A stretch of DNA of 44,281 nt from Sulfuricaulis sp. (GTDB taxonomy: Bacteria; Pseudomonadota; Gammaproteobacteria; Acidiferrobacterales; Sulfurifustaceae), in contig JANLIC010000087.1 of NCBI GenBank assembly GCA_024654125.1, positions 1 through 44,281 on the forward strand, in the 5' to 3' direction. This document shows, one piece after another, positions 2,700-41,028 of this stretch. A program made the position numbers and the translations under genes. The notes below the pieces were generated by a model. It ran no database searches and was not told the origin of the DNA. It saw nothing but the letters and a program-made list of their open reading frames with translations. Numbering within the stretch: position 1 is the first letter of the stretch; each line of letters begins with the position of its first letter.

Positions 2700-5230
2700 C
2701 AAAATAGTCTCTCGCGGATGTTTTCCGGCACCTTTTCCGGCATGGTCTCCGTCGTGGTTTCACCATCGAGACCGGGAAGGGATTGGGGCGTTTCCGTGCC
2801 CTCCACAAAAAATTCCTCCATCGCCTGTGGATCGTCGGGCGTGGTGGGTTTCCCGGTTTCGCTGTTGATGGTGATGCGCACCATGGTTTCCGGTGGCGTC
2901 AGCGGTTTTTCCGGAATCCCCTCGAGCGCCGTGCGCATGAAATCGATCCACACCGGCAGCGCGGTGCGTCCGCCGGTTTCGGCCCGACCGAGCGACAGCG
3001 GTTGGTCGAAGCCAATCCACGCCGTTGTCACCACCTCACTGTTGAAGCCCGAAAACCAGGCATCGCGGTAGTCGTTGGTGGTCCCGGTTTTGCCGGCGAG
3101 GTCCTTGCGTCCCAGGACCAGCGCCCCCCGTCCGGTGCCGGCGCGGATGACCTCCTGCATCATGCTAGCCATGAGAAAGCTGGTTTCGACGCTGAGTACG
3201 CGCGGCGCGTATGCCGGCTGGTCCTGGCCACCAGCCAAGTTTGCTGGGGGGGCGGTGGCCGGTTTGGACGACCACTGCGCGGTATTCGAAGACATGTCGA
3301 CTGCCGATGTTTCACATTCACGGCAGACAACCGCCGGCCGGGCCTGTTCCAGTATGGTGTGGTTGGCGTCCTCCACGCGCGCGATGAAGTACGGAGTGAC
3401 GCGGTAACCGCCGTTGGCAAACACGGCAAACGCGCTCACCATCTGCATGGGTGTGGCCGAGACGGTGCCGAGCGCGAGCGACAGGTTGCGCGGAATTTTG
3501 GCCGGGTCGAATCCAAAACGCTCCATGTGTTTGACGGTGTAGGTGACACCGATCGCGCGCAGCAGGCGCACGGCCACGAGATTAAGCGATTGCGCCAGGG
3601 CCTTGCGCAGCCGCGTGGGCCCGTAAAATTTCCTGTTGTAATCCTCGGGACGCCATTCTTCTTCTGGCGAGTCACCGCCGTCCATGACGATCGGCGCACC
3701 GCTGACCGTACTGGCGGCGGTGAAACCCTTGTCCAAGGCCGCGCTGAAGATGAAGGGCTTGATGCTCGATCCGGGCTGGCGCTCCGCCTGTGTGGCGCGG
3801 TTGAAACTGCTGTGGGAAAAATCAAAGCCGCCGGTCAGGGCCAGCACGGCGCCGTCGTCCGGTCGCAGGGACACCAACGCGCCCGCGACGTCCGGTATCT
3901 GTGCCAAACGCCACAGCCCGATATCCTTCAGCTGTTGCGGATCCTCGATGGCCTCAAGGTAAATGATGTCGCCGGCCTTGAGGATATCCGTTGCCTGTTT
4001 GGGCGCGGGACCCAGGGTGTTCTCGTCGACATACCTCCGAGCCCAGGACAATCCGCCCCATTCGGTTTCGACGATCGCGCCGTCCTGGGTGTATACATGC
4101 ACCTTGTCTTTTTCGACCTTGAACACAATTCCCGGCAGCAGATAACCGATGACGCGATAATCCTTGAGCACGTCGTCCAGACGCTCCTTGTCAGGCTCGC
4201 TCTTGATCGAAACGTGCCCCGCCGGTCCTCGGTAGCCGTGCCGGCGATCGTATTCCAGCAATCCAGTGCGGAGCGCCTTGACCGCGGCTTGCTGATACTT
4301 GCTGTTGAGGGTGGTATAGACATGGAAACCCCCGGCATAGGTTTTTTCGTCATACGTCTGGATCATGTACTGGCGCACCAGTTCGGCGACGTATGGCGCC
4401 GCCGTATCGGATTTAAGGGTGTGCTTGGCGGCGGCGAGCGGCGTCTCGATCGCCTCGGAATAGGCCGCCTCATCGATGAAACCGTTGTTCAGCATCAGTT
4501 TCAGAATGGTGTTACGTCTTTCGTAGGCGTTCTCCGGATTGGTTAGCGGGTTGTCACGCGATGGCGCCTTGGGGAGTCCCGCGAGCATCGCCATTTCCGG
4601 CAGGTTAAGTAGCGGCAGGGTTTTCCCGTAATAAATCTGCGCGGCCGCGGCAAAGCCGTAGGAACGGTGACCGAGAAAAATCTTGTTAAAATAAAGCTCG
4701 AGGATCTGCTGTTTGCTCAATTCGCGCTCGATCTTGAAGGCCAGCAGAACCTCCTTGATTTTCCGCGTGTAGGTTTTTTCAGGGCTGAGAAAGAAGTTGC
4801 GCGCCACCTGCATGGTAATGGTGCTCGCTCCCTGCGACGTCGACTGGGTGCGCAGGTTGTGCAACCCCGCCCGCAGTATCCCGGCGAAGTCCACCCCATG
4901 ATGATAGAAAAACGAGCGGTCTTCAGCAGCCAGCACCGCATTAATGAGCATCTCCGGCACTTCCCCGATTCTGACCGGGATGCGTTTTTCCTCGCCGAAC
5001 TCGGCGATTAACTCCCCGTCGGCGGTGTAAACCCGCATCGGCACTTTAAGCTGTGCCCCCGAGAGATCCTCGAGAGACGGGAGCGTGGGCGTGAGGATGA
5101 GCGCGATCAGGGTCAGTATCACTACGCCGGTCGCGAGGAGGCCAAAGAGGCCGATCAGCGCCACCTGCCACCATTTCGTGGGCAGGTGCTGGTGGGTCCA
5201 GCGGGAGAAAAAGCTCCCAGAATCATTCAT
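2699..5230 (-). CDS. mrcA: Penicillin-binding protein 1A, bifunctional peptidoglycan synthase
   Basis: Class A PBP (843 residues, normal family length) that polymerises lipid II and cross-links the glycan strands at the periplasmic face of the inner membrane. A short cytoplasmic tail is followed by one membrane anchor (about residues 22-48). The glycosyltransferase domain carries EDRSFFYHHGVD with the catalytic Glu near 103, then STITMQVARN and RKIKEVLLAF. The middle region carries the PBP1A-type OB-like insertion. The transpeptidase domain has SSIK at about 488-491, an SLN motif (AQSLNLVAVRL), and GKTGTTND near 713. It is divergent from pilMNOPQ, the classical gammaproteobacterial arrangement, so the 257-base gap must hold promoters for both. 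Confidence 0.97.
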   Translation of the reverse strand: MNDSGSFFSRWTHQHLPTKWWQVALIGLFGLLATGVVILTLIALILTPTLPSLEDLSGAQLKVPMRVYTADGELIAEFGEEKRIPVRIGEVPEMLINAVLAAEDRSFFYHHGVDFAGILRAGLHNLRTQSTSQGASTITMQVARNFFLSPEKTYTRKIKEVLLAFKIERELSKQQILELYFNKIFLGHRSYGFAAAAQIYYGKTLPLLNLPEMAMLAGLPKAPSRDNPLTNPENAYERRNTILKLMLNNGFIDEAAYSEAIETPLAAAKHTLKSDTAAPYVAELVRQYMIQTYDEKTYAGGFHVYTTLNSKYQQAAVKALRTGLLEYDRRHGYRGPAGHVSIKSEPDKERLDDVLKDYRVIGYLLPGIVFKVEKDKVHVYTQDGAIVETEWGGLSWARRYVDENTLGPAPKQATDILKAGDIIYLEAIEDPQQLKDIGLWRLAQIPDVAGALVSLRPDDGAVLALTGGFDFSHSSFNRATQAERQPGSSIKPFIFSAALDKGFTAASTVSGAPIVMDGGDSPEEEWRPEDYNRKFYGPTRLRKALAQSLNLVAVRLLRAIGVTYTVKHMERFGFDPAKIPRNLSLALGTVSATPMQMVSAFAVFANGGYRVTPYFIARVEDANHTILEQARPAVVCRECETSAVDMSSNTAQWSSKPATAPPANLAGGQDQPAYAPRVLSVETSFLMASMMQEVIRAGTGRGALVLGRKDLAGKTGTTNDYRDAWFSGFNSEVVTTAWIGFDQPLSLGRAETGGRTALPVWIDFMRTALEGIPEKPLTPPETMVRITINSETGKPTTPDDPQAMEEFFVEGTETPQSLPGLDGETTTETMPEKVPENIRERLF

Positions 5231-8305: not shown

Positions 8306-10921
8306 ATGAAACAGCAAACACGAATCTTGCGCACGATGGCGGTCGCGGCTGGCCGATGCCTGATGTTTCTTGTCGCCATGACAGGAATGTCTGCCACGGC
8401 GATGGGCGCTGTAATCCAGTCCTTGGCCTGGGAACCGGGAAGTGAGGCTTCGGTGCTCCAAGTGCGTGCCTCCGGCGAAGGTACATATACCACCGAGGTA
8501 CTGGAAGAGGGTAAGCGGTTGCGCATCAACTTCCCGGACAGCAGCATGGGACCATCCCTCGCCGAGCTTCAGGGCCAGGAGAAGGCGAAGGGGGTTTATC
8601 CCTATCTGGCCGACAATGGCACGGCCGTGGTGGTGGACCTGTTGATGAACGAGCCCGGGGCACTTAACGTGCAAAAGGCCGCCTACGGATACCGAGTATT
8701 GGCCTCCACGACACCGTCGTTAGCCATTACACCACCGGTTGCCTCGGAAATGCCGGCCAAGATTGAGGAACCCGCGACCGCCACTCCTATTGTCACCGAA
8801 CCGACTCCCGCGGTGCCCGGCGCGCAAGGGAAAAATTCCATCGAGGACATCGTCTACGCCAAGTTGCCCGGTGACCGGATTCAAATCACCTTTAAAATGA
8901 CACAGCCGCCCACGGAGCCGGACGCTTTTACCATCACTAACCCGGCGCGGATATCACTGGATTTCGCCAACACCCGCGTCGGGCTGGAGAAAAAGAGTCT
9001 CGCGGTCAAGGAAGCGGCTGTAACCAGTGTGACGGCCATCGAGGCGGAAAATCGCTCACGTGTCGTGGTCAGCCTGATCAAGCCTGTCGCGTATTCCACG
9101 GTAATCGATGGTAACAATTTCGTCGTGACCGTGGAGGCACCTGTTAGCGCCATAGCCGGGGCGGTGGAGCCGAAGACCACGCATTTTGCCAGTACTCGCA
9201 AGTCCGGCAAATACAATCTCACGGGTATCGATTTCCGTCGTGGCCCGCAGGGCGACGGCAAGATTATCATCAACCTCTCCGATCCCACCGTGGGCATCGA
9301 CATCCGTGAGCAAGCCGGTGAGATCATGCTCGATTTCCTGAATACCTCGACGTCTGCCGAATTGCAACGCCGGCTTGACGTGGTGGATTTTGCTACACCC
9401 GTCCAGACCATCGATACGTTTGCGCAAGGAAAAAACACGCGCATGATTATCACGCCCAAGGGCAAGTACGAGCACTTGGCGTACCAGACGGGGAATCTCT
9501 TCACCGTCAGTGTCAAACCGGTGATTGAAAGGCCGGACGAGAAAAAAGTCGACGAGTTCGGTTACTCCGGCGAGAAGCTGTCGCTTAATTTCCAGAACAT
9601 CGAGGCGCGCGCCGCGCTGCAAGTGTTGGCGGATTTTACCGGCCTCAATTTCGTGGTGAGTGACACCGTCAAGGGTTCGTTGACGCTGCGCTTGAAGGAC
9701 GTTCCGTGGGATCAAGCGTTGGATCTTATCCTCGACAGCAAGAATTTGGCGATGCGGCGCAAAGGTAACGTGATCACGGTGGCGCCCGCGCCGGAAGTGG
9801 CGGCCAAGGAGAAGGCCAATATGGAGGCGACCAAGGCGGTGGTCGAGCTGGAACCGCTGGTTTCGGAACTCATCCAGATCAACTATGCCAAGGCCAATGA
9901 CATCGCGGCATTACTGAAGTCGATCAAGGCCGTGACCAGCACGACGGCCACCCAAGAGCACCCGGTGTTCGGCAGCTCCGCCACCGGCGTTTCGACGCAG
10001 AGCTCCACGTCTTCCAATACCCTGCTGTCACCGCGCGGGCAGGTTACCGTGGATCAGCGCACTAACTCACTGCTCATTCAGGACACGCCGGGCAAAATCC
10101 GTGAAGTGCGCCAACTGATCGCCAAGCTGGATCAGCCCGTGCGCCAAGTCATGATCGAATCGCGCCTGGTCGAGGCGACGGATAACTTTGCCAGATCGCT
10201 CGGCACGCGGCTCGCGCACCTTTACGGAAGCGCCAACAGTAAAGGAAATATTGCAACTTCATCGGGCAAGATCGACGTGTTACCGCCGCTGCGTCCGCCC
10301 GGCGGCGGGACGCCGGTGTATGAAATTATTCCCAGCGGGCTCAACGTGAACCTGCCCTCTCCGGGCATTGGCGACTCCGCCCCGGGCAGCTTCATGATCG
10401 ACATCTTCAAGGGTGGTCTCGAGCTCACACTAGAATTATCCGCGCTCGAGCAATCCGGAAAGGGGAAAATCATCTCAAGCCCGCGGCTTATCACGGCCGA
10501 CCAGAAGAAAGCCTCGATCGAGCAGGGACAGGAGCGCGTTTTCACCACCAGTGTTCTGGGCGTCGGCACCGTGGTCACCAAAAAAGCCACGCTCAAACTG
10601 GAAGTCACGCCCCAAATTACGCCGGATGATCGAATCAATCTCGAGGTGCAAATCACCAAGGATAATTTCGTGGATGCGGTATCTGGTCTGTTAAACGTGA
10701 AACAGATTAGCACCCAGGTCCTGCTGGACAATGGCGAGACCGTGGTGCTGGGGGGCATCTATGAGCAGGACGAAATCAAAACCGTCACCCAAGTCCCGTT
10801 CTTCGGCGACATACCTATATTGGGCTGGTTGTTTAAAAACAAGGAAGTCAAAGACAACAAGACCGAATTGTTGATCTTCCTGACCCCGCGGATTCTCTCG
10901 GATAACCTGAGATTGCGTTAA
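8306..10921 (+). CDS. pilQ: Type IV pilus secretin PilQ
   Basis: Outer-membrane secretin channel (871 residues) through which the pilus is extruded. The order is a signal peptide, beta-rich AMIN domains (about 36-125 and 300-400, with a further one probable around 185-280), then an STN/N0 domain from about 425 (LSLNFQNIEARAALQVLADF). Next come an N1/NolW-type domain with a Ser/Thr-rich loop and the secretin domain, ending with VPFFGDIPILGWLFKNK and LLIFLTPRIL. The AMIN domains bind peptidoglycan. A terminator-like hairpin follows the stop codon, so pilQ probably ends the operon. Confidence 0.96.
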   Translation: MKQQTRILRTMAVAAGRCLMFLVAMTGMSATAMGAVIQSLAWEPGSEASVLQVRASGEGTYTTEVLEEGKRLRINFPDSSMGPSLAELQGQEKAKGVYPYLADNGTAVVVDLLMNEPGALNVQKAAYGYRVLASTTPSLAITPPVASEMPAKIEEPATATPIVTEPTPAVPGAQGKNSIEDIVYAKLPGDRIQITFKMTQPPTEPDAFTITNPARISLDFANTRVGLEKKSLAVKEAAVTSVTAIEAENRSRVVVSLIKPVAYSTVIDGNNFVVTVEAPVSAIAGAVEPKTTHFASTRKSGKYNLTGIDFRRGPQGDGKIIINLSDPTVGIDIREQAGEIMLDFLNTSTSAELQRRLDVVDFATPVQTIDTFAQGKNTRMIITPKGKYEHLAYQTGNLFTVSVKPVIERPDEKKVDEFGYSGEKLSLNFQNIEARAALQVLADFTGLNFVVSDTVKGSLTLRLKDVPWDQALDLILDSKNLAMRRKGNVITVAPAPEVAAKEKANMEATKAVVELEPLVSELIQINYAKANDIAALLKSIKAVTSTTATQEHPVFGSSATGVSTQSSTSSNTLLSPRGQVTVDQRTNSLLIQDTPGKIREVRQLIAKLDQPVRQVMIESRLVEATDNFARSLGTRLAHLYGSANSKGNIATSSGKIDVLPPLRPPGGGTPVYEIIPSGLNVNLPSPGIGDSAPGSFMIDIFKGGLELTLELSALEQSGKGKIISSPRLITADQKKASIEQGQERVFTTSVLGVGTVVTKKATLKLEVTPQITPDDRINLEVQITKDNFVDAVSGLLNVKQISTQVLLDNGETVVLGGIYEQDEIKTVTQVPFFGDIPILGWLFKNKEVKDNKTELLIFLTPRILSDNLRLR

Positions 10922-22238: not shown

Positions 22239-23573
22239 TTGGTACAGAATGAAGCCGAGGCGAGTGGAGCGTCGTCCTCGAAAAAACTGCTGGGATTGCT
22301 GGAAGGTCTGAAACGCACGCCGGTCGGGGCCGTCATTTACGACCAGATTGCGCGGATCGTGGATGAGCAGGAAGGCGTGCAGGCCAAGGTTGACCATGTT
22401 TACGCCTCGCTGCTGCACCTGCTGCTGAACGCCTACGCCCGCGACCCGAGCGCGGATCACATCACTCGCATCAACGCGCGCCTGATTCAGTTGCGCCGCG
22501 GTCCGATTACTCCTCGCGGCTCCTTGGTTACGAAGCAAACCATCGAAGAGAATCTTAACCAGGCGGCCTCTTCTCAATTTCGTTCGGAAGTCACGGATTT
22601 CCGGGCGCCTGAATCCGGGCCACCCCCGGCCGCGCGTTCTCCCGCTCCGGCGCCAGAAACGCCGATCCCGCCCACACCCCCTTCCGGGGATGGCGCATCG
22701 AATGGCGTCCCGGCGGTCGAACGCCGCGTCGATACGGCTTACCGCCAGCATCTCGAGCAACAGCGCAATGAAATCGCGAAATTGCAGGAAACGCTCGCCA
22801 AAACCGTTATCGAAGCCATGATTCAGAACCGTGAGTTCGGGGCGCTACTGCAAATCGAATTGCGCGCCCTGCAACAGGCCAACGGCGACAAGGAAATCGA
22901 GCAGCTGCGGCAGATCCTGGTCGGGGGCCTGGAAGAGCTGATCCAGGGACAGAATTCTCTCGACACCAAGCTGCACAAGACGAGTGGCTATCTCAAGCTC
23001 ATCAAAGCCGACAGTGAACGCCTGCACAGGGAACTGAACAAGGTGCGGCTGCTTTCGATGACCGACGAATTCACCGGCCTTCCCAACCGCCGCGCGTTCA
23101 CGCAGCGGCTCAAGGACGAGATCAGCCGCGCGCAGCGTTACGGTTCACCGCTCGCGCTGGCCATGATCGACCTGGACGAGTTCAAGGCCATCAACGATTT
23201 GCACGGTCACGCCGCCGGCGACGCCATCCTGCGCAGTTACGCCGCCGACGTGCTGACGGTGCTGCGCCACCACGATCTGGTCGCGCGCTACGGCGGCGAG
23301 GAATTCGCCGTGCTGTTGCCCAATACCACCCAAGAAGGGGCAGTGGCCGCCATCTCCAAGGCCAGGAACCGCGCGTTGCAGGTCGAGTGCGAATTCCAGG
23401 GCCGGACATTCAAGCTGCCCAGCTTTTCCACCGGTATCTCCCTGTATTCGACCGGCGAGGCGCATACCGATCTCATCGACCGTGCCGATCGCGCCCTCTA
23501 CCGCGCCAAGCGCTTGGGCCGCAACCGCATTGAGCTTGAAATGGGTCTGCCGCTGGCCGACCAGAAGGGCTAG
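22239..23573 (+). CDS. Diguanylate cyclase with helical N-terminal domain (first of a tandem pair)
   Basis: Soluble 444-residue protein predicted to make cyclic di-GMP from two GTP. The N-terminal helical module (about 8-90: LLEGLKRTPVGAVIYDQI to INARLIQLRR) is followed by a Pro-rich linker (about 125-160) and a coiled coil. The C-terminal GGDEF domain has MIDLDEFKAINDLHGHAAGD, the active-site YGGEEF, and an inhibitory RxxD (RHHD) five residues before it. No membrane segment or receiver domain is visible. The start is TTG at 22239, nine bases after AGGAGG. The next gene encodes a paralogue with the same layout. Confidence 0.9.
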   Translation: MVQNEAEASGASSSKKLLGLLEGLKRTPVGAVIYDQIARIVDEQEGVQAKVDHVYASLLHLLLNAYARDPSADHITRINARLIQLRRGPITPRGSLVTKQTIEENLNQAASSQFRSEVTDFRAPESGPPPAARSPAPAPETPIPPTPPSGDGASNGVPAVERRVDTAYRQHLEQQRNEIAKLQETLAKTVIEAMIQNREFGALLQIELRALQQANGDKEIEQLRQILVGGLEELIQGQNSLDTKLHKTSGYLKLIKADSERLHRELNKVRLLSMTDEFTGLPNRRAFTQRLKDEISRAQRYGSPLALAMIDLDEFKAINDLHGHAAGDAILRSYAADVLTVLRHHDLVARYGGEEFAVLLPNTTQEGAVAAISKARNRALQVECEFQGRTFKLPSFSTGISLYSTGEAHTDLIDRADRALYRAKRLGRNRIELEMGLPLADQKG

Positions 23574-23634
23574 CACATCCGCCACCAGGCGAGAATCCGG
23601 GTAACAGGTTGTGAACCGGATGGCGGGCGACTAA

Positions 23635-23675
23635 TCTCCTAAAAGGCAGGCATTTCACGCCTGCGACTCAGGAGA
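23635..23675 (+). promoter_or_regulatory. Hairpin that pairs with the ribosome site of the second cyclase
   Basis: TCTCCT (23635-23640) is complementary to AGGAGA (23670-23675), the ribosome binding site of the TTG start at 23681. An inner stem, GCAGGC (23646-23651) with GCCTGC (23659-23664) and a 7-nt loop, would hold the two strands together. A further hairpin, ATCCGG (23595-23600) with CCGGAT (23616-23621), lies just upstream. When folded, the ribosome site would be masked. Confidence 0.55.
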
Positions 23676-23680
23676 CGGAA

Positions 23681-25069
23681 TTGGCGGATTCCCAGAACAC
23701 CTCGACTTCAGCCGATCCGTCGCTGCTGCAAAGCCTGAAGCTCCATCTCGAAGGTCTGAAGCGCACCCAGCACGGGCAGATTCTCTACAGCCAGATTCAG
23801 CGCGGCCTGGAGAAATACGGCCACGAGGACGGGCGCCTTGAACTGGTCTTCGTCACTTTCCTGTACGTGTTGCTGGGGAAGTATGCCACGAGTCCGGCCT
23901 GCGATCCGACAACACGCGTCAAGGCCCGTCTCATACAGCAGCGGCTCACAATTTATCTACCCAAGATAGCCCCGACTAAGCCGGCACCAAAATTGGCCGT
24001 CCCATCGCCGGCTTCAGCGCCCGAGAAAGCGGAATACATCCCGCCGCCCACGGAGTCACCCAAGGCTGCCATCCCTCCAGAACCAGTCGTCGAGAAGATC
24101 CCGGAGCCGGTGGTTGAGTCGAAACCGGAAAAGGCACCGGAACCCGACTCAATTCCCGAACCCGTACTGGAACCGACCGCAAAGGATGTCACACCGACGA
24201 TCGAGACCGGTGCGTCAGTGCCGCCGGTCGAAGCGGAGGCGGCCGCTCCCGCTGAGCCGGCTCCACCTTCGCGGCAGGAAAAGATTGAGGTGCTGGAAGA
24301 CACGTTGGCCGGACAGGTGACCGAAAGTATCGCGATCGACAGGAAATTCGGCGAATTGCTGGAGAACGAACGCGAGACGTTGAAGAATTTAGACAGCCCG
24401 CTCGGCGAGTTCAGCGATCTCAAGCAGATCCTGGTCAAGGGGCTGAACGAGCTGATCGAAGAACGCCAGGCCCTGATCGAAAAGATGTCGAGCGCCGGGG
24501 ATTTCCTCAAGGCCGTGGAAACGGATCGCGAGCGCCTGCGCCAGGAGCTCACCCACGCGCGCAAGCACAGCCTGGCGGACGAGCTGACCGGCCTGCCCAA
24601 GCGCGACGTGTTCGTCAAGCAGCTGGAGGCGGAAATCGGCCGCGTGAAACGCTACGGCTTCGCGTTGGCGGTGGCGGTGATCGACGTGGACAATCTCGAA
24701 TCCATCAACAAGCGCTACGGACGGACCGCGGGGGATGCGGTGTTGCGCTGCTACGCCGGCCAGATTCTGGGCAAGTTCCGTACTTACGACCTGGTGGCGC
24801 GCTACGGCGGCGACGAATTCGCGGTGCTGTTCCCGAACACACAGAAGGACGGCGCCATGCACGCACTGGAAAAGGCGCGCAAGACCGCGGCCAGCACCTT
24901 CATCCGGGAAGATGGAAAAAATATTCCCCTGCCGAGTTTCTCCAGCGTGCTCACACAGTACTCGCCGGGCGAGCCGGCCTCGGCGCTGCTCCAGCGCGCG
25001 GACCAGACGCTGAGCCAGGCGAGACTGGCCGGTTACAATCGCATGGTGGTGGCGCTACCCACGACTTAG
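23681..25069 (+). CDS. Diguanylate cyclase-like protein (second of a tandem pair, altered GGDEF core)
   Basis: A 462-residue paralogue of the preceding protein. The N-terminal module aligns directly (LEGLKRTQHGQILYSQIQRG to RVKARLIQQRL). A long Pro/Glu/Ala-rich linker (about 105-205) is followed by a coiled coil and a GGDEF domain with YGGDEF and an RxxD inhibitory site (RTYD). Several conserved positions differ: where family members have DxDxFKxxNDxxGH, this reads DVDNLESINKRYGR, losing Phe-Lys, the Asp of ND and the His of GH. It may be weakly active or act as a cyclic di-GMP sensor. Start TTG, with AGGAGA 5 bases upstream inside a hairpin. Confidence 0.87.
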   Translation: MADSQNTSTSADPSLLQSLKLHLEGLKRTQHGQILYSQIQRGLEKYGHEDGRLELVFVTFLYVLLGKYATSPACDPTTRVKARLIQQRLTIYLPKIAPTKPAPKLAVPSPASAPEKAEYIPPPTESPKAAIPPEPVVEKIPEPVVESKPEKAPEPDSIPEPVLEPTAKDVTPTIETGASVPPVEAEAAAPAEPAPPSRQEKIEVLEDTLAGQVTESIAIDRKFGELLENERETLKNLDSPLGEFSDLKQILVKGLNELIEERQALIEKMSSAGDFLKAVETDRERLRQELTHARKHSLADELTGLPKRDVFVKQLEAEIGRVKRYGFALAVAVIDVDNLESINKRYGRTAGDAVLRCYAGQILGKFRTYDLVARYGGDEFAVLFPNTQKDGAMHALEKARKTAASTFIREDGKNIPLPSFSSVLTQYSPGEPASALLQRADQTLSQARLAGYNRMVVALPTT

Positions 25070-38757: not shown

Positions 38758-41028
38758 ATGTCCGCTGCGTCGCGAATTTATCAGGTGGCCGTACCTACCC
38801 CTCTGTATCGCGCGTTTGATTATCTAGCAACTGTGTCACTGGTACCGGGGACGCGCGTGCGGGTGCCGTTCGGGCGCCGCGAATTGGTCGGTGTGGTGCT
38901 GGGCGAAGTGGCGCAAAGCGAACTGCCCAGCGGCCGGCTGAAGCCCATCACACAGGCGCTGGATGCGAGCGCTATTCTGCCACCGACTATCCTGGGCTTG
39001 CTGCGGTGGGCGGCGGATTATTACCACCATCCCCTCGGTGAAGTGATTCACACAGCCTTGCCAGTCCGATTGCGTCAGGGCCGAGCGCCGGATACGGCGG
39101 GAGTGAAGGTCTGGATGCTGACCCCCGAAGGCCGTGCCGTGGATCCCGGGGCGCTGAAGCGCGCCCCGACGCAAAGGCTCGTGCTCGAGACACTGGCATT
39201 GTCCGCGGAGGGGGTGGAGGCGGACCAACTGGCGCAGATTTCCCAGCGCTCAGCTGCCGCGCTCAGGGCATTGCGCAGCAAAGGGTGGGTGAGCAGTTAC
39301 CAGCGCGATCACAGGGAGGAAACGAAACCAGCCTCCGTGACGGGGCCACCACTTAACCCGGGTCAACAATCCGCTGTGTCTGCCATCTTGGCCGGCCTGA
39401 AAAATTTTTATCCTTGCCTGTTGCACGGGGTCACCGGCAGCGGCAAGACCGAAGTCTACCTGAGCGTGATTGAACAGCTGTTGCCACAAGGAAAGCAGTC
39501 GCTGGTGCTGGTGCCGGAAATAAGCCTGACGCCACAGCTCGTGGGGCGGTTCGAGCGCCGCTTTGGGCTTCCCATCGCGGTGCTGCACTCCGGGCTCAAC
39601 GAGCAGGAACGTCTGAGCGCCTGGGTGCGGGCGGTGGAGGGCAAGGCCCCCATCGTGCTCGGGACGCGCTCGGCTGTTTTCACACCACTCAGGAATCCCG
39701 GGCTCATTGTCGTGGACGAGGAGCACGACGCCTCCTACAAGCAACAGGAGGGTTTCCGCTACTCGGCGCGTGATGTCGCGGTCATGCGTGCCGCGCGTGA
39801 AAAAATTCCAATCATCCTGGGTTCAGCGACACCTTCGCTGGAGAGCCTCAAGAACGCACGCCAGGGGGCCTATGCGCTGATTGAGTTGCCGGAGCGGACC
39901 GGCAGTGCCGTCATGCCGGACGTGCGGCTGCTCGATATGCGTCGCCTCAAGCCGAGCGAGGGGCTCTCTATGCCGCTGCGTGAGGCGCTGGCGGAGAGAT
40001 TGGAAAAAGGCGAACAAAGCATCCTGTTTCTGAACCGCCGCGGTTTTTCCCCGGTGTGGATGTGTTTTGACTGCGGTTGGGTGGCCTCCTGTAAACGCTG
40101 TGATGCCAGGCTCACGCTGCATCAGACAATTTCGCCGGGAGCGAAATTGGACGCGCACAGCGCGCCCGCTGGGGGCGCGCCAGGGATGGCACGCATCAAG
40201 AAACAAAAGCTGCTTTGCCATCATTGTGGTGCGGACCAGCAAATCACACCGCGTTGTCCCACCTGCCAGGGCGAGAACCTGCATCCGCTCGGCGAGGGCA
40301 CCGAGCGCGTGGAAGGCGCGCTGCAAAAGTTTTTCCCCAACGCGCGCGTCGAGCGCATCGATCGTGACAGCACCGCTCGCCGCGGCGCGCTCGAGGAAAT
40401 ACTGCGCCGGGTACACGAAGGCAAAGCCGATATCCTGGTCGGTACCCAGATGCTCTCGAAGGGGCATGATTTCCCCAACGTCACGCTGGTCGGAATCCTG
40501 AACGCCGACCAGGGGCTCTATGGCACCGATTTTCGTTCGGGCGAACGGCTGTTCCAGTTGATCATGCAAGTGAGCGGACGCGCGGGACGCGCAGACAAGC
40601 AGGGCGAGGTGCTGATCCAGACCTGGCATCCCGATCATCCGTTGTTCACCGCGCTACAACGGCACGACTTTCATGGCTTCGCCGAGTATGCGTTGAATGA
40701 ACGCCGCGAGGCCGGGTACCCGCCTTACAGTCATCTAGCCTTGCTGCGTGCCGAATCGCCGGCGCCCGGCGCGGCTCTCGAATTTTTAAACGCCGCGCGC
40801 GTCTTGGCTGTGCGGCTTGCGCCCGGTAAGGATGTGCAGACACTGACGCCGTTACCCGCGCCCATGGAGCGGCGTGCCGGACGCTACCGCGCGCAAATGC
40901 TGGTGCAATCCAGGCAGCGCGGTCCGTTGCACGATTTCCTGGGACGGTGGGTGATGCAACTGGCCGAGGCGAAATTCGCGAAAAAGACCCGCTGGTCCCT
41001 GGATGTCGATCCGCTCGACATGCATTGA
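38758..41028 (+). CDS. priA: Primosomal protein N' (replication restart helicase PriA)
   Basis: A 3'-5' helicase (756 residues) that recognises abandoned forks and reloads DnaB. The N-terminal DNA-binding domain precedes the helicase motor: Walker A GVTGSGKTEVYL, motif II DEEHD, GSATPSLES, then LNRRGFSPVW. Zinc cysteines are CFDCGWVASCKRC near 437 and CHHCG...CPTC. The C-terminal helicase lobe has GTQMLSKGHDFP and QVSGRAGRADKQGEV. It is about 24 residues longer than E. coli PriA because of an insert between the zinc pairs (about 457-480), which is two hairpins at the DNA level. Start ATG at 38758; only a weak ribosome site is visible. Confidence 0.96.
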   Translation: MSAASRIYQVAVPTPLYRAFDYLATVSLVPGTRVRVPFGRRELVGVVLGEVAQSELPSGRLKPITQALDASAILPPTILGLLRWAADYYHHPLGEVIHTALPVRLRQGRAPDTAGVKVWMLTPEGRAVDPGALKRAPTQRLVLETLALSAEGVEADQLAQISQRSAAALRALRSKGWVSSYQRDHREETKPASVTGPPLNPGQQSAVSAILAGLKNFYPCLLHGVTGSGKTEVYLSVIEQLLPQGKQSLVLVPEISLTPQLVGRFERRFGLPIAVLHSGLNEQERLSAWVRAVEGKAPIVLGTRSAVFTPLRNPGLIVVDEEHDASYKQQEGFRYSARDVAVMRAAREKIPIILGSATPSLESLKNARQGAYALIELPERTGSAVMPDVRLLDMRRLKPSEGLSMPLREALAERLEKGEQSILFLNRRGFSPVWMCFDCGWVASCKRCDARLTLHQTISPGAKLDAHSAPAGGAPGMARIKKQKLLCHHCGADQQITPRCPTCQGENLHPLGEGTERVEGALQKFFPNARVERIDRDSTARRGALEEILRRVHEGKADILVGTQMLSKGHDFPNVTLVGILNADQGLYGTDFRSGERLFQLIMQVSGRAGRADKQGEVLIQTWHPDHPLFTALQRHDFHGFAEYALNERREAGYPPYSHLALLRAESPAPGAALEFLNAARVLAVRLAPGKDVQTLTPLPAPMERRAGRYRAQMLVQSRQRGPLHDFLGRWVMQLAEAKFAKKTRWSLDVDPLDMH
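40127..40180 (+). repeat. Two-hairpin palindromic element inside priA
   Basis: CAATTTCGC (40127-40135) pairs perfectly with GCGAAATTG (40141-40149) around CGGGA. GCGCGCCC (40160-40167) pairs perfectly with GGGCGCGC (40173-40180) around GCTGG. The encoded residues lie exactly where this PriA is longer than its relatives, between the two zinc-binding cysteine groups. Confidence 0.65.

Follow-up and report, generated by a model that had tools for sequence, protein, structure and literature searches.

The question raised by this locus is whether the extra residues that PriA carries between its zinc-binding motifs are an ordinary loop of the protein or a piece of mobile DNA that has become part of it. 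The locus lies in a window of 44,281 nucleotides (the whole stretch of DNA that was analyzed) from a draft, metagenome-type assembly of Sulfuricaulis sp., which is fragmented (346 contigs) and 88% complete. Throughout, G000 designates the genome of the window, the other G-numbers its relatives and the L-numbers the loci that were fetched. Our results make it very probable that the insert is a copy of a mobile three-hairpin repeat, which entered priA after the split from the sister species, is likely translated and probably has little effect on the protein.

The insertion in priA

The identity of the host gene is supported by NCBIfam (NF004067, 972.7 bits for a cut-off of 763, as well as TIGR00595), by the Pfam domains PriA_3primeBD, DEAD, Helicase_C and PriA_C, and by a phmmer search against PDB (PriA 4nl4; E = 2e-202). 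The Pfam model Zn_ribbon_PriA is matched over its first 12 positions only, and a scan of the genome contigs for PriA returned distant relatives only. The first-pass annotation of this DNA had described about 24 residues in excess, located between the zinc motifs, and we confirmed both the size and the position. With 756 aa, the protein is 24 residues longer than that of a relative (G005; 2196 bp, 732 aa) and than the solved chain 8fak_H (732 residues), and its alignment to solved PriAs presents a single break (between residues 457 and 484 relative to Klebsiella PriA), which sits between the zinc pairs C445/C448 and C487/C490 of the zinc-binding domain. The zinc cysteines, all of which are kept, and the helicase motifs fall in alignment columns that are invariant or nearly so.

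We then measured how many residues separate the two pairs of zinc cysteines in the 90 homologues for which this linker was readable. The linker comprises 14 residues in 79 of them, 16–25 in ten and 38 in the PriA of the window. The PriA search set comprised 40 relatives, including eight of the same genus; the insert is missing from the priA genes of all eight, and their linker is 14 residues in every case. Near relatives had been expected to lack the insert, and none of the same-genus genes was found to carry the alternative that had been envisaged, a loop of similar length encoded by non-palindromic DNA.

The comparison with empty alleles establishes the length, frame and position of the insert. 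When 40127-40198 is removed in silico, CTGCATCAGA joins AGAAACAAAAG to give CTGCATCAGAAGAAACAAAAG, which encodes LHQKKQK, and the sister species G008 presents CTGCACCAGAAAAAACAGAAA, also encoding LHQKKQK, at the same site. The junction is clean, and apart from one ambiguous A the target is not duplicated. It spans exactly 72 bp, which keeps the reading frame as had been claimed, and falls within the slightly wider interval originally proposed (40123-40200). Our covariance model R1 scored the element at 87.8 bits (E = 1.5e-18) and detected no other copy within the window. The coordinates are collected in Table 1.

Table 1. Coordinates of the insertion, its components and the related pilQ allele in the window.
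Feature	Position	Strand	Description	Evidence
priA	38758..41028	+	Replication restart helicase PriA (primosomal protein N'), 756 aa, insertion host	NCBIfam, Pfam, phmmer
Left target flank	40123..40126	+	CAGA; insertion point CAGA^AGAAAC	Empty-site comparison
Inserted palindromic element	40127..40198	+	TISPGAKLDAHSAPAGGAPGMARI; 72 bp = 24 codons, residues 457-480	Empty same-genus alleles, covariance model, dispersed homologues
Hairpin H1	40127..40149	+	CAATTTCGC / GCGAAATTG; 9-bp stem, 5-nt loop CGGGA; arms 40127-40135/40141-40149, exact	Inverted-repeat search, covariation
Hairpin H2	40152..40164	+	CGCGC / GCGCG; 5 bp; arms 40152-40156/40160-40164	Family alignment, covariation
Alternative inverted repeat	40160..40180	+	GCGCGCCC / GGGCGCGC; 8 bp; 40160-40167/40173-40180; H2 3' arm and H3 5' arm	Not conserved pairing
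Hairpin H3	40174..40195	+	GGCGCGCC / GGCACGCA; loop AGGGAT; 8 bp in family; arms 40174-40181/40188-40195; 6/8 paired in the priA copy (two mismatches)	Family alignment, covariation
Element 3' tail	40196..40198	+	TCA; present in 31/37 aligned copies	
pilQ	8306..10921	+	Empty allele of the site filled in G002 and G007	Empty-site comparison

Elsewhere in the window, an 11-bp perfect hairpin (TCCCTTCTCCC cgcca GGGAGAAGGGA) was noted at 1871-1897; the surrounding stretch, in which GGGTGAGGGG also occurs, is GC-rich and probably intergenic. The C-terminal parts of two neighboring GGDEF-like genes (22239-25069) have in common a direct repeat of 104 nt (70% identity), which probably reflects a tandem duplication.

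Architecture, dispersal and insertion sites of the repeat

The repeat unit consists of three consecutive hairpins with the layout CAATTTTGTCRGGAACAAAATTG-GACGCGC-TTYA-GCGCGCCCGCAGGGTGCGCGCC-AGGGAT-GGCGCGCATCA or variants of it; the core unit measures 72–75 bp and a longer subfamily 87–97 bp. Two perfect hairpins had initially been reported in the insert. The 9-bp hairpin H1 is indeed exact, and the second, 8-bp repeat is present in the sequence but does not correspond to the pairing that the family conserves. The folding energy of the priA stretch is only moderately unusual (z = −2.5; 4 of 200 shuffles), so only comparison could decide the matter. Across 37 aligned copies, 97.5% of the cells pair and both sides have changed in 13 of the 22 pairs, namely 5 of 9 in H1 (98.8% of cells paired), 2 of 5 in H2 (99.5%) and 6 of 8 in H3 (94.9%). 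Double-change cells number 76, against 16.8 in shuffled alignments; none of the 500 shuffles reached the observed value on a single measure, and pairing falls to 29% when the partners are shifted by one column. No match over the element was found among the 4227 RNA families of Rfam. The covariation and the existence of dispersed homologous copies together rule out chance hairpins.

The annotation had proposed looking for the same hairpin DNA between genes, and we found it there, both in the genome of the window and in its relatives. Searching the former with the insert region yielded two further matches, and a search for the hairpin pattern identified five sites including priA (none for the reversed control pattern). 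The PriA protein search also matched the insert peptide in non-priA DNA of G008 and G007, and these matches are intergenic copies 90–97% identical to the query element. With a 72-bp consensus-like DNA query, we obtained 60 matches in eight of the nine same-genus genomes, 27 of them in G008. The covariance model, trained on 37 copies, was run on 57 genomes of the order Acidiferrobacterales, and copies in the genome of the window were counted by this model search. Matches were found in 24 genomes with a patchy distribution: 49 in G008, 35 in G015, 20 in both G006 and G013, 19 in G000, 17 in G020, 16 in both G007 and G034, and 15 in G054, down to zero in the 18 genomes of family f4. The cultured type strain Sulfuricaulis limicola carries about 11 copies. 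Placement is mostly intergenic. Many intergenic copies, among them L124-L127, are embedded in another repeat, of the form CACCGCAAAGACGCAAAG ... CTTTGCGTCTTTGCGGTGA. Database searches returned no phage or viral match and a single partial match of 46 bases to an Aeromonas record; spread on phages, plasmids or viral contigs was rejected for lack of such matches.

Insertion sites were tabulated for 135 copies. The base to the left is A in 128 of them (GA in 73, CA in 51) and the base to the right is A in 109. Comparison of filled and empty sites gives the junctions shown in Table 1 for priA, ACGGA^AACGC for RecG and CCGGA^AACGG for a cytochrome-cd1-type protein; the NuoB junction, as judged by reading, is GTGGA^AAAAGG. 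Copies also occur in gapless tandem, and in several genera as head-to-head pairs separated by spacers of 16–20 nt that are often palindromic (TCTTTG...CAAAGA), for instance at L163, L164, L296, L300 and L315-L322. This suggests that the dimer of about 165 bp is a second mobile form. At L308 (1465-1580) and L179 (1448-1534), extra bases lie in or near H1, apparently representing elements nested within an element.

Some copies are associated with tRNA sequences. At L003 (G000:C24, about 4480-4740), an intact tRNA-Gln copy is accompanied by a degenerate one, whose anticodon loop and T-loop (TTCGA^ATCC) each contain an element of the long subfamily, the two being oppositely oriented. Copies after TTCGA in T-arm-like sequence were also seen at L178 (G008:C102), L231 (G000:C256), L133 (G001:C41) and L245 (G000:C224); at L178, this sequence is the duplicated 3' end of an upstream tRNA-Arg. 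These sites may reflect the GA^A target offered by the T-loop, or old attachment-site duplications being hit.

The architecture of the unit bears on an alternative that we regard as unlikely, namely that the element is a CGTC-type REP, a superfamily that includes RPE-4, RPE-6 and Neisseria dRS3 (PMC3733652), and that it spread as REPs do. The 9-bp stem and 5-nt loop of H1 fit the range given for these repeats (stem of 8–9 bp, loop of 4–5 nt), and what follows the stem partly resembles their tag, defined as CGTC or TGTC/CCTC: 27 of the 37 copies have GACG there, which reads CGTC in the opposite direction, six have GGCG and four GTCG. Frequent head-to-head dimers with structured spacers of 16–20 nt are likewise described for CGTC-type REPs (PMC3733652), which also share the occurrence of intragenic copies and the lack of a known dedicated transposase. 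However, the first pair of H1 is C-G in 35 of 37 copies, whereas CGTC-type REPs start near-invariably with A-T, [GC]A stands before H1, and the unit closes with TCA instead of a CCA tail. Moreover, H1 cannot be separated from a unit of 72–75 bp, which compares with 20–40 bp for these REPs: of the 98 H1 hairpins in the fetched loci, 97 belong to the three-hairpin unit, and solitary H1 hairpins acting as an independent REP were rejected on this count. The reading that we favor is that of a composite three-hairpin repeat of its own family.

In-frame copies in other genes and the probable effect on PriA

The mobile three-hairpin repeat was also found in frame in other genes, whose families were confirmed with Pfam and NCBIfam. 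These are RecG in G006 (25 codons; seven sister genomes empty), RlmD in G008 (about 51 extra codons in total, with a copy that is longer/nested or rearranged; eight genomes empty), a cytochrome-cd1-type protein in G008 (24 codons, with the element on the opposite strand; orthologs in six sister genomes without the stretch), a rhodanese in G000 (about 28 codons, from the longer subfamily, with an empty ortholog in G001), NuoB in G000 (25 codons after residue 7), WaaF in another genus (G013; 25 codons, where the solved structure 1psw of an E. coli-type WaaF has a gap) and the N-terminus of PilQ in G002 and G007, where a downstream start is possible. The element boundaries given for RlmD and the rhodanese are approximate, as the copies there are longer or nested. 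Empty alleles were thus seen for five (RecG, RlmD, cd1-type, rhodanese and PilQ), and the in-gene copies use all three forward reading frames and one reverse frame.

Because a search for open ORFs favors in-frame copies, we also deleted the element in silico from all 135 copies and looked for coding-like ORFs across the join. This excision scan revealed six credible insertions in the interior of genes, each of them stop-free and in frame; among the 135 copies, there was no convincing case of an intragenic insertion that breaks the frame. ORFs over other copies (e.g., L125, L140, L146 and L306) appeared antisense-like or spurious and were left out of the counts. The element presents 4.17 open frames on average, compared with 4.23 after shuffling, and on this basis we rejected the idea that the element is itself selected to keep frames open. 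Since the element is not enriched in open frames, we infer that the in-frame pattern is explained by purifying selection on the host genes and that coding capacity is incidental.

The expectation that the insert occupies a tolerant loop agrees with the AlphaFold2 model of PriA (built with 40 homologues; mean pLDDT of 89.4). A single long stretch of low confidence corresponds to the insert, with residues 459-480 below 50 and joining the predicted strands 453-456 and 483-486. The simplest reading of the model is that the insert forms a disordered turn that PriA tolerates. The zinc-domain loop accepts additions more generally, as the linkers of 16–25 residues in some other PriAs show, and the insert would be close to neutral. 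It is improbable that the element is no neutral passenger and that helicases of the replication fork and of repair (PriA in this genome, RecG in a sister species) retain it preferentially, with an added loop that alters the behavior of the enzyme and thereby promotes genome plasticity.

It also seems very improbable that intron-like splicing or translational bypass eliminates the insert at the RNA level, leaving a PriA of normal length. Such a scenario could appeal to the hairpin-rich and mobile nature of the element and to its presence in the anticodon loop and T-loop of the tRNA-Gln copy, but that tRNA copy is degenerate with an intact one adjoining, no intron of Rfam matches, and the in-gene copies are multiples of three in length and stop-free, as expected if they are translated. 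An assembly artefact, in which a repeat copy was mis-stitched into priA, is hardly credible: a multi-copy element in a metagenome-type draft of 346 contigs invites this concern, but priA runs on without interruption and with homology to either side of the insert, which is cleanly inserted, a multiple of three in length and located at the customary [GC]A^A target, and the same behavior is observed in RecG, RlmD, the cd1-type protein and WaaF of other assemblies. Finally, we give practically no credence to an ordinary, inherited length variant of the zinc-domain loop with coincidental hairpins. In its favor, some beta- and gammaproteobacterial PriAs have linkers of 16–25 residues without the element, but the uniform 14-residue linkers of the empty same-genus alleles and the dispersed, covarying intergenic copies of the same DNA refute it.

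Proposed movement and comparison with known systems

Insertion of the mobile three-hairpin repeat into priA very probably proceeded as follows. The source is a non-autonomous mobile repeat, with a unit of 72–75 bp and longer subfamilies, spread across Sulfuricaulis and other genera of Acidiferrobacterales. A copy inserted between [G/C]A and A, without duplicating its target, into priA of this lineage, and the empty alleles place this event after the split from the sister species. Survival of the insertion would be due to its length being a multiple of three, to the lack of a stop in the frame used and to the tolerant turn of the zinc domain. Its transcription and translation most likely yield 24 additional disordered residues, which would have little effect on PriA.

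The repeat lacks terminal inverted repeats, does not duplicate its target, has hairpins at both ends and inserts at a fixed short target, a combination expected of single-strand (HUH/Y1) transposases. As a guess of modest weight, the repeat was most likely moved by a transposase of this type, or a similar host-encoded enzyme, acting on the hairpins. Genes for Y1_Tnp (PF01797) were found in eight of the nine same-genus genomes. No copy of the element was found within the fetched flanks of 20 Y1_Tnp loci, and a linkage to Y1_Tnp/RAYT genes was rejected on this ground; moreover, Y1_Tnp was not detected in G001, which does contain copies. As for features of RAYT-mobilized REPs, no GTAG tag was found in the alignment and no copy flanks the Y1_Tnp/RAYT genes at these 20 loci.

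The annotation had likened the insert to the palindromic elements of Rickettsia (RPE). According to two papers that describe the work of Ogata et al. (2000, 2002), RPEs are about 105–150 bp long, with 12-bp terminal inverted repeats and one long stem-loop, and are inserted in frame in protein genes and also in two RNA genes (PMC10969869, PMC2229807). The likeness holds for the behavior: our element is dispersed and palindromic, it is located between genes as well as in frame in unrelated conserved genes and also in an RNA gene, and the host proteins tolerate it. Membership does not hold, as judged by description: the core unit is 72–75 bp (87–97 bp in the longer subfamily), its termini CAATT... 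and ...TCA are not complementary and thus form no terminal inverted repeats, and the host belongs to Gammaproteobacteria rather than Rickettsia. By analogy, the element appears to work like an RPE without being one, since it departs from two defining features, length and terminal inverted repeats.

Other systems provide partial precedents. WPE-like palindromes are described in priA, addA and addB of Wolbachia (PMC4224334). These resemble our case as in-frame palindromic insertions in priA itself that create no stops, but, compared by description, they belong to another lineage and the regions concerned in their priA cover some 200 and 840 positions of the alignment. Intragenic copies have been reported for REPs of both the GTAG and the CGTC type, with an excess noted in replication and repair genes (PMC3733652). 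Bacterial MITEs such as ERIC, RUP and Correia/NEMIS are small and non-autonomous, and some provide open frames fused to host genes (PMC2229807). Our element is similarly small and non-autonomous, with some copies reading through in host genes, but it shows neither the terminal inverted repeats nor the target site duplications of MITEs.

We found no description of this repeat family in the literature searched, which does not prove its absence elsewhere. In the broad sense, protein-coding palindromic elements are dispersed palindromes, intergenic and intragenic, with in-frame insertions for which empty alleles exist, and both properties were observed here. It is well supported that the repeat constitutes a new family of a known kind of element, for which in-frame palindromes in priA and REPs in repair genes are precedents. 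Protein-coding palindromic elements are best known from Rickettsiales, obligate intracellular bacteria in which the weakened selection of small populations offers a natural explanation, and the named relatives of the present host are free-living sulfur oxidizers. The same behavior in sulfur-oxidizing Gammaproteobacteria, with unusually clear filled and empty alleles at several conserved genes among sister species, constitutes a natural experiment in the conversion of mobile DNA into protein.
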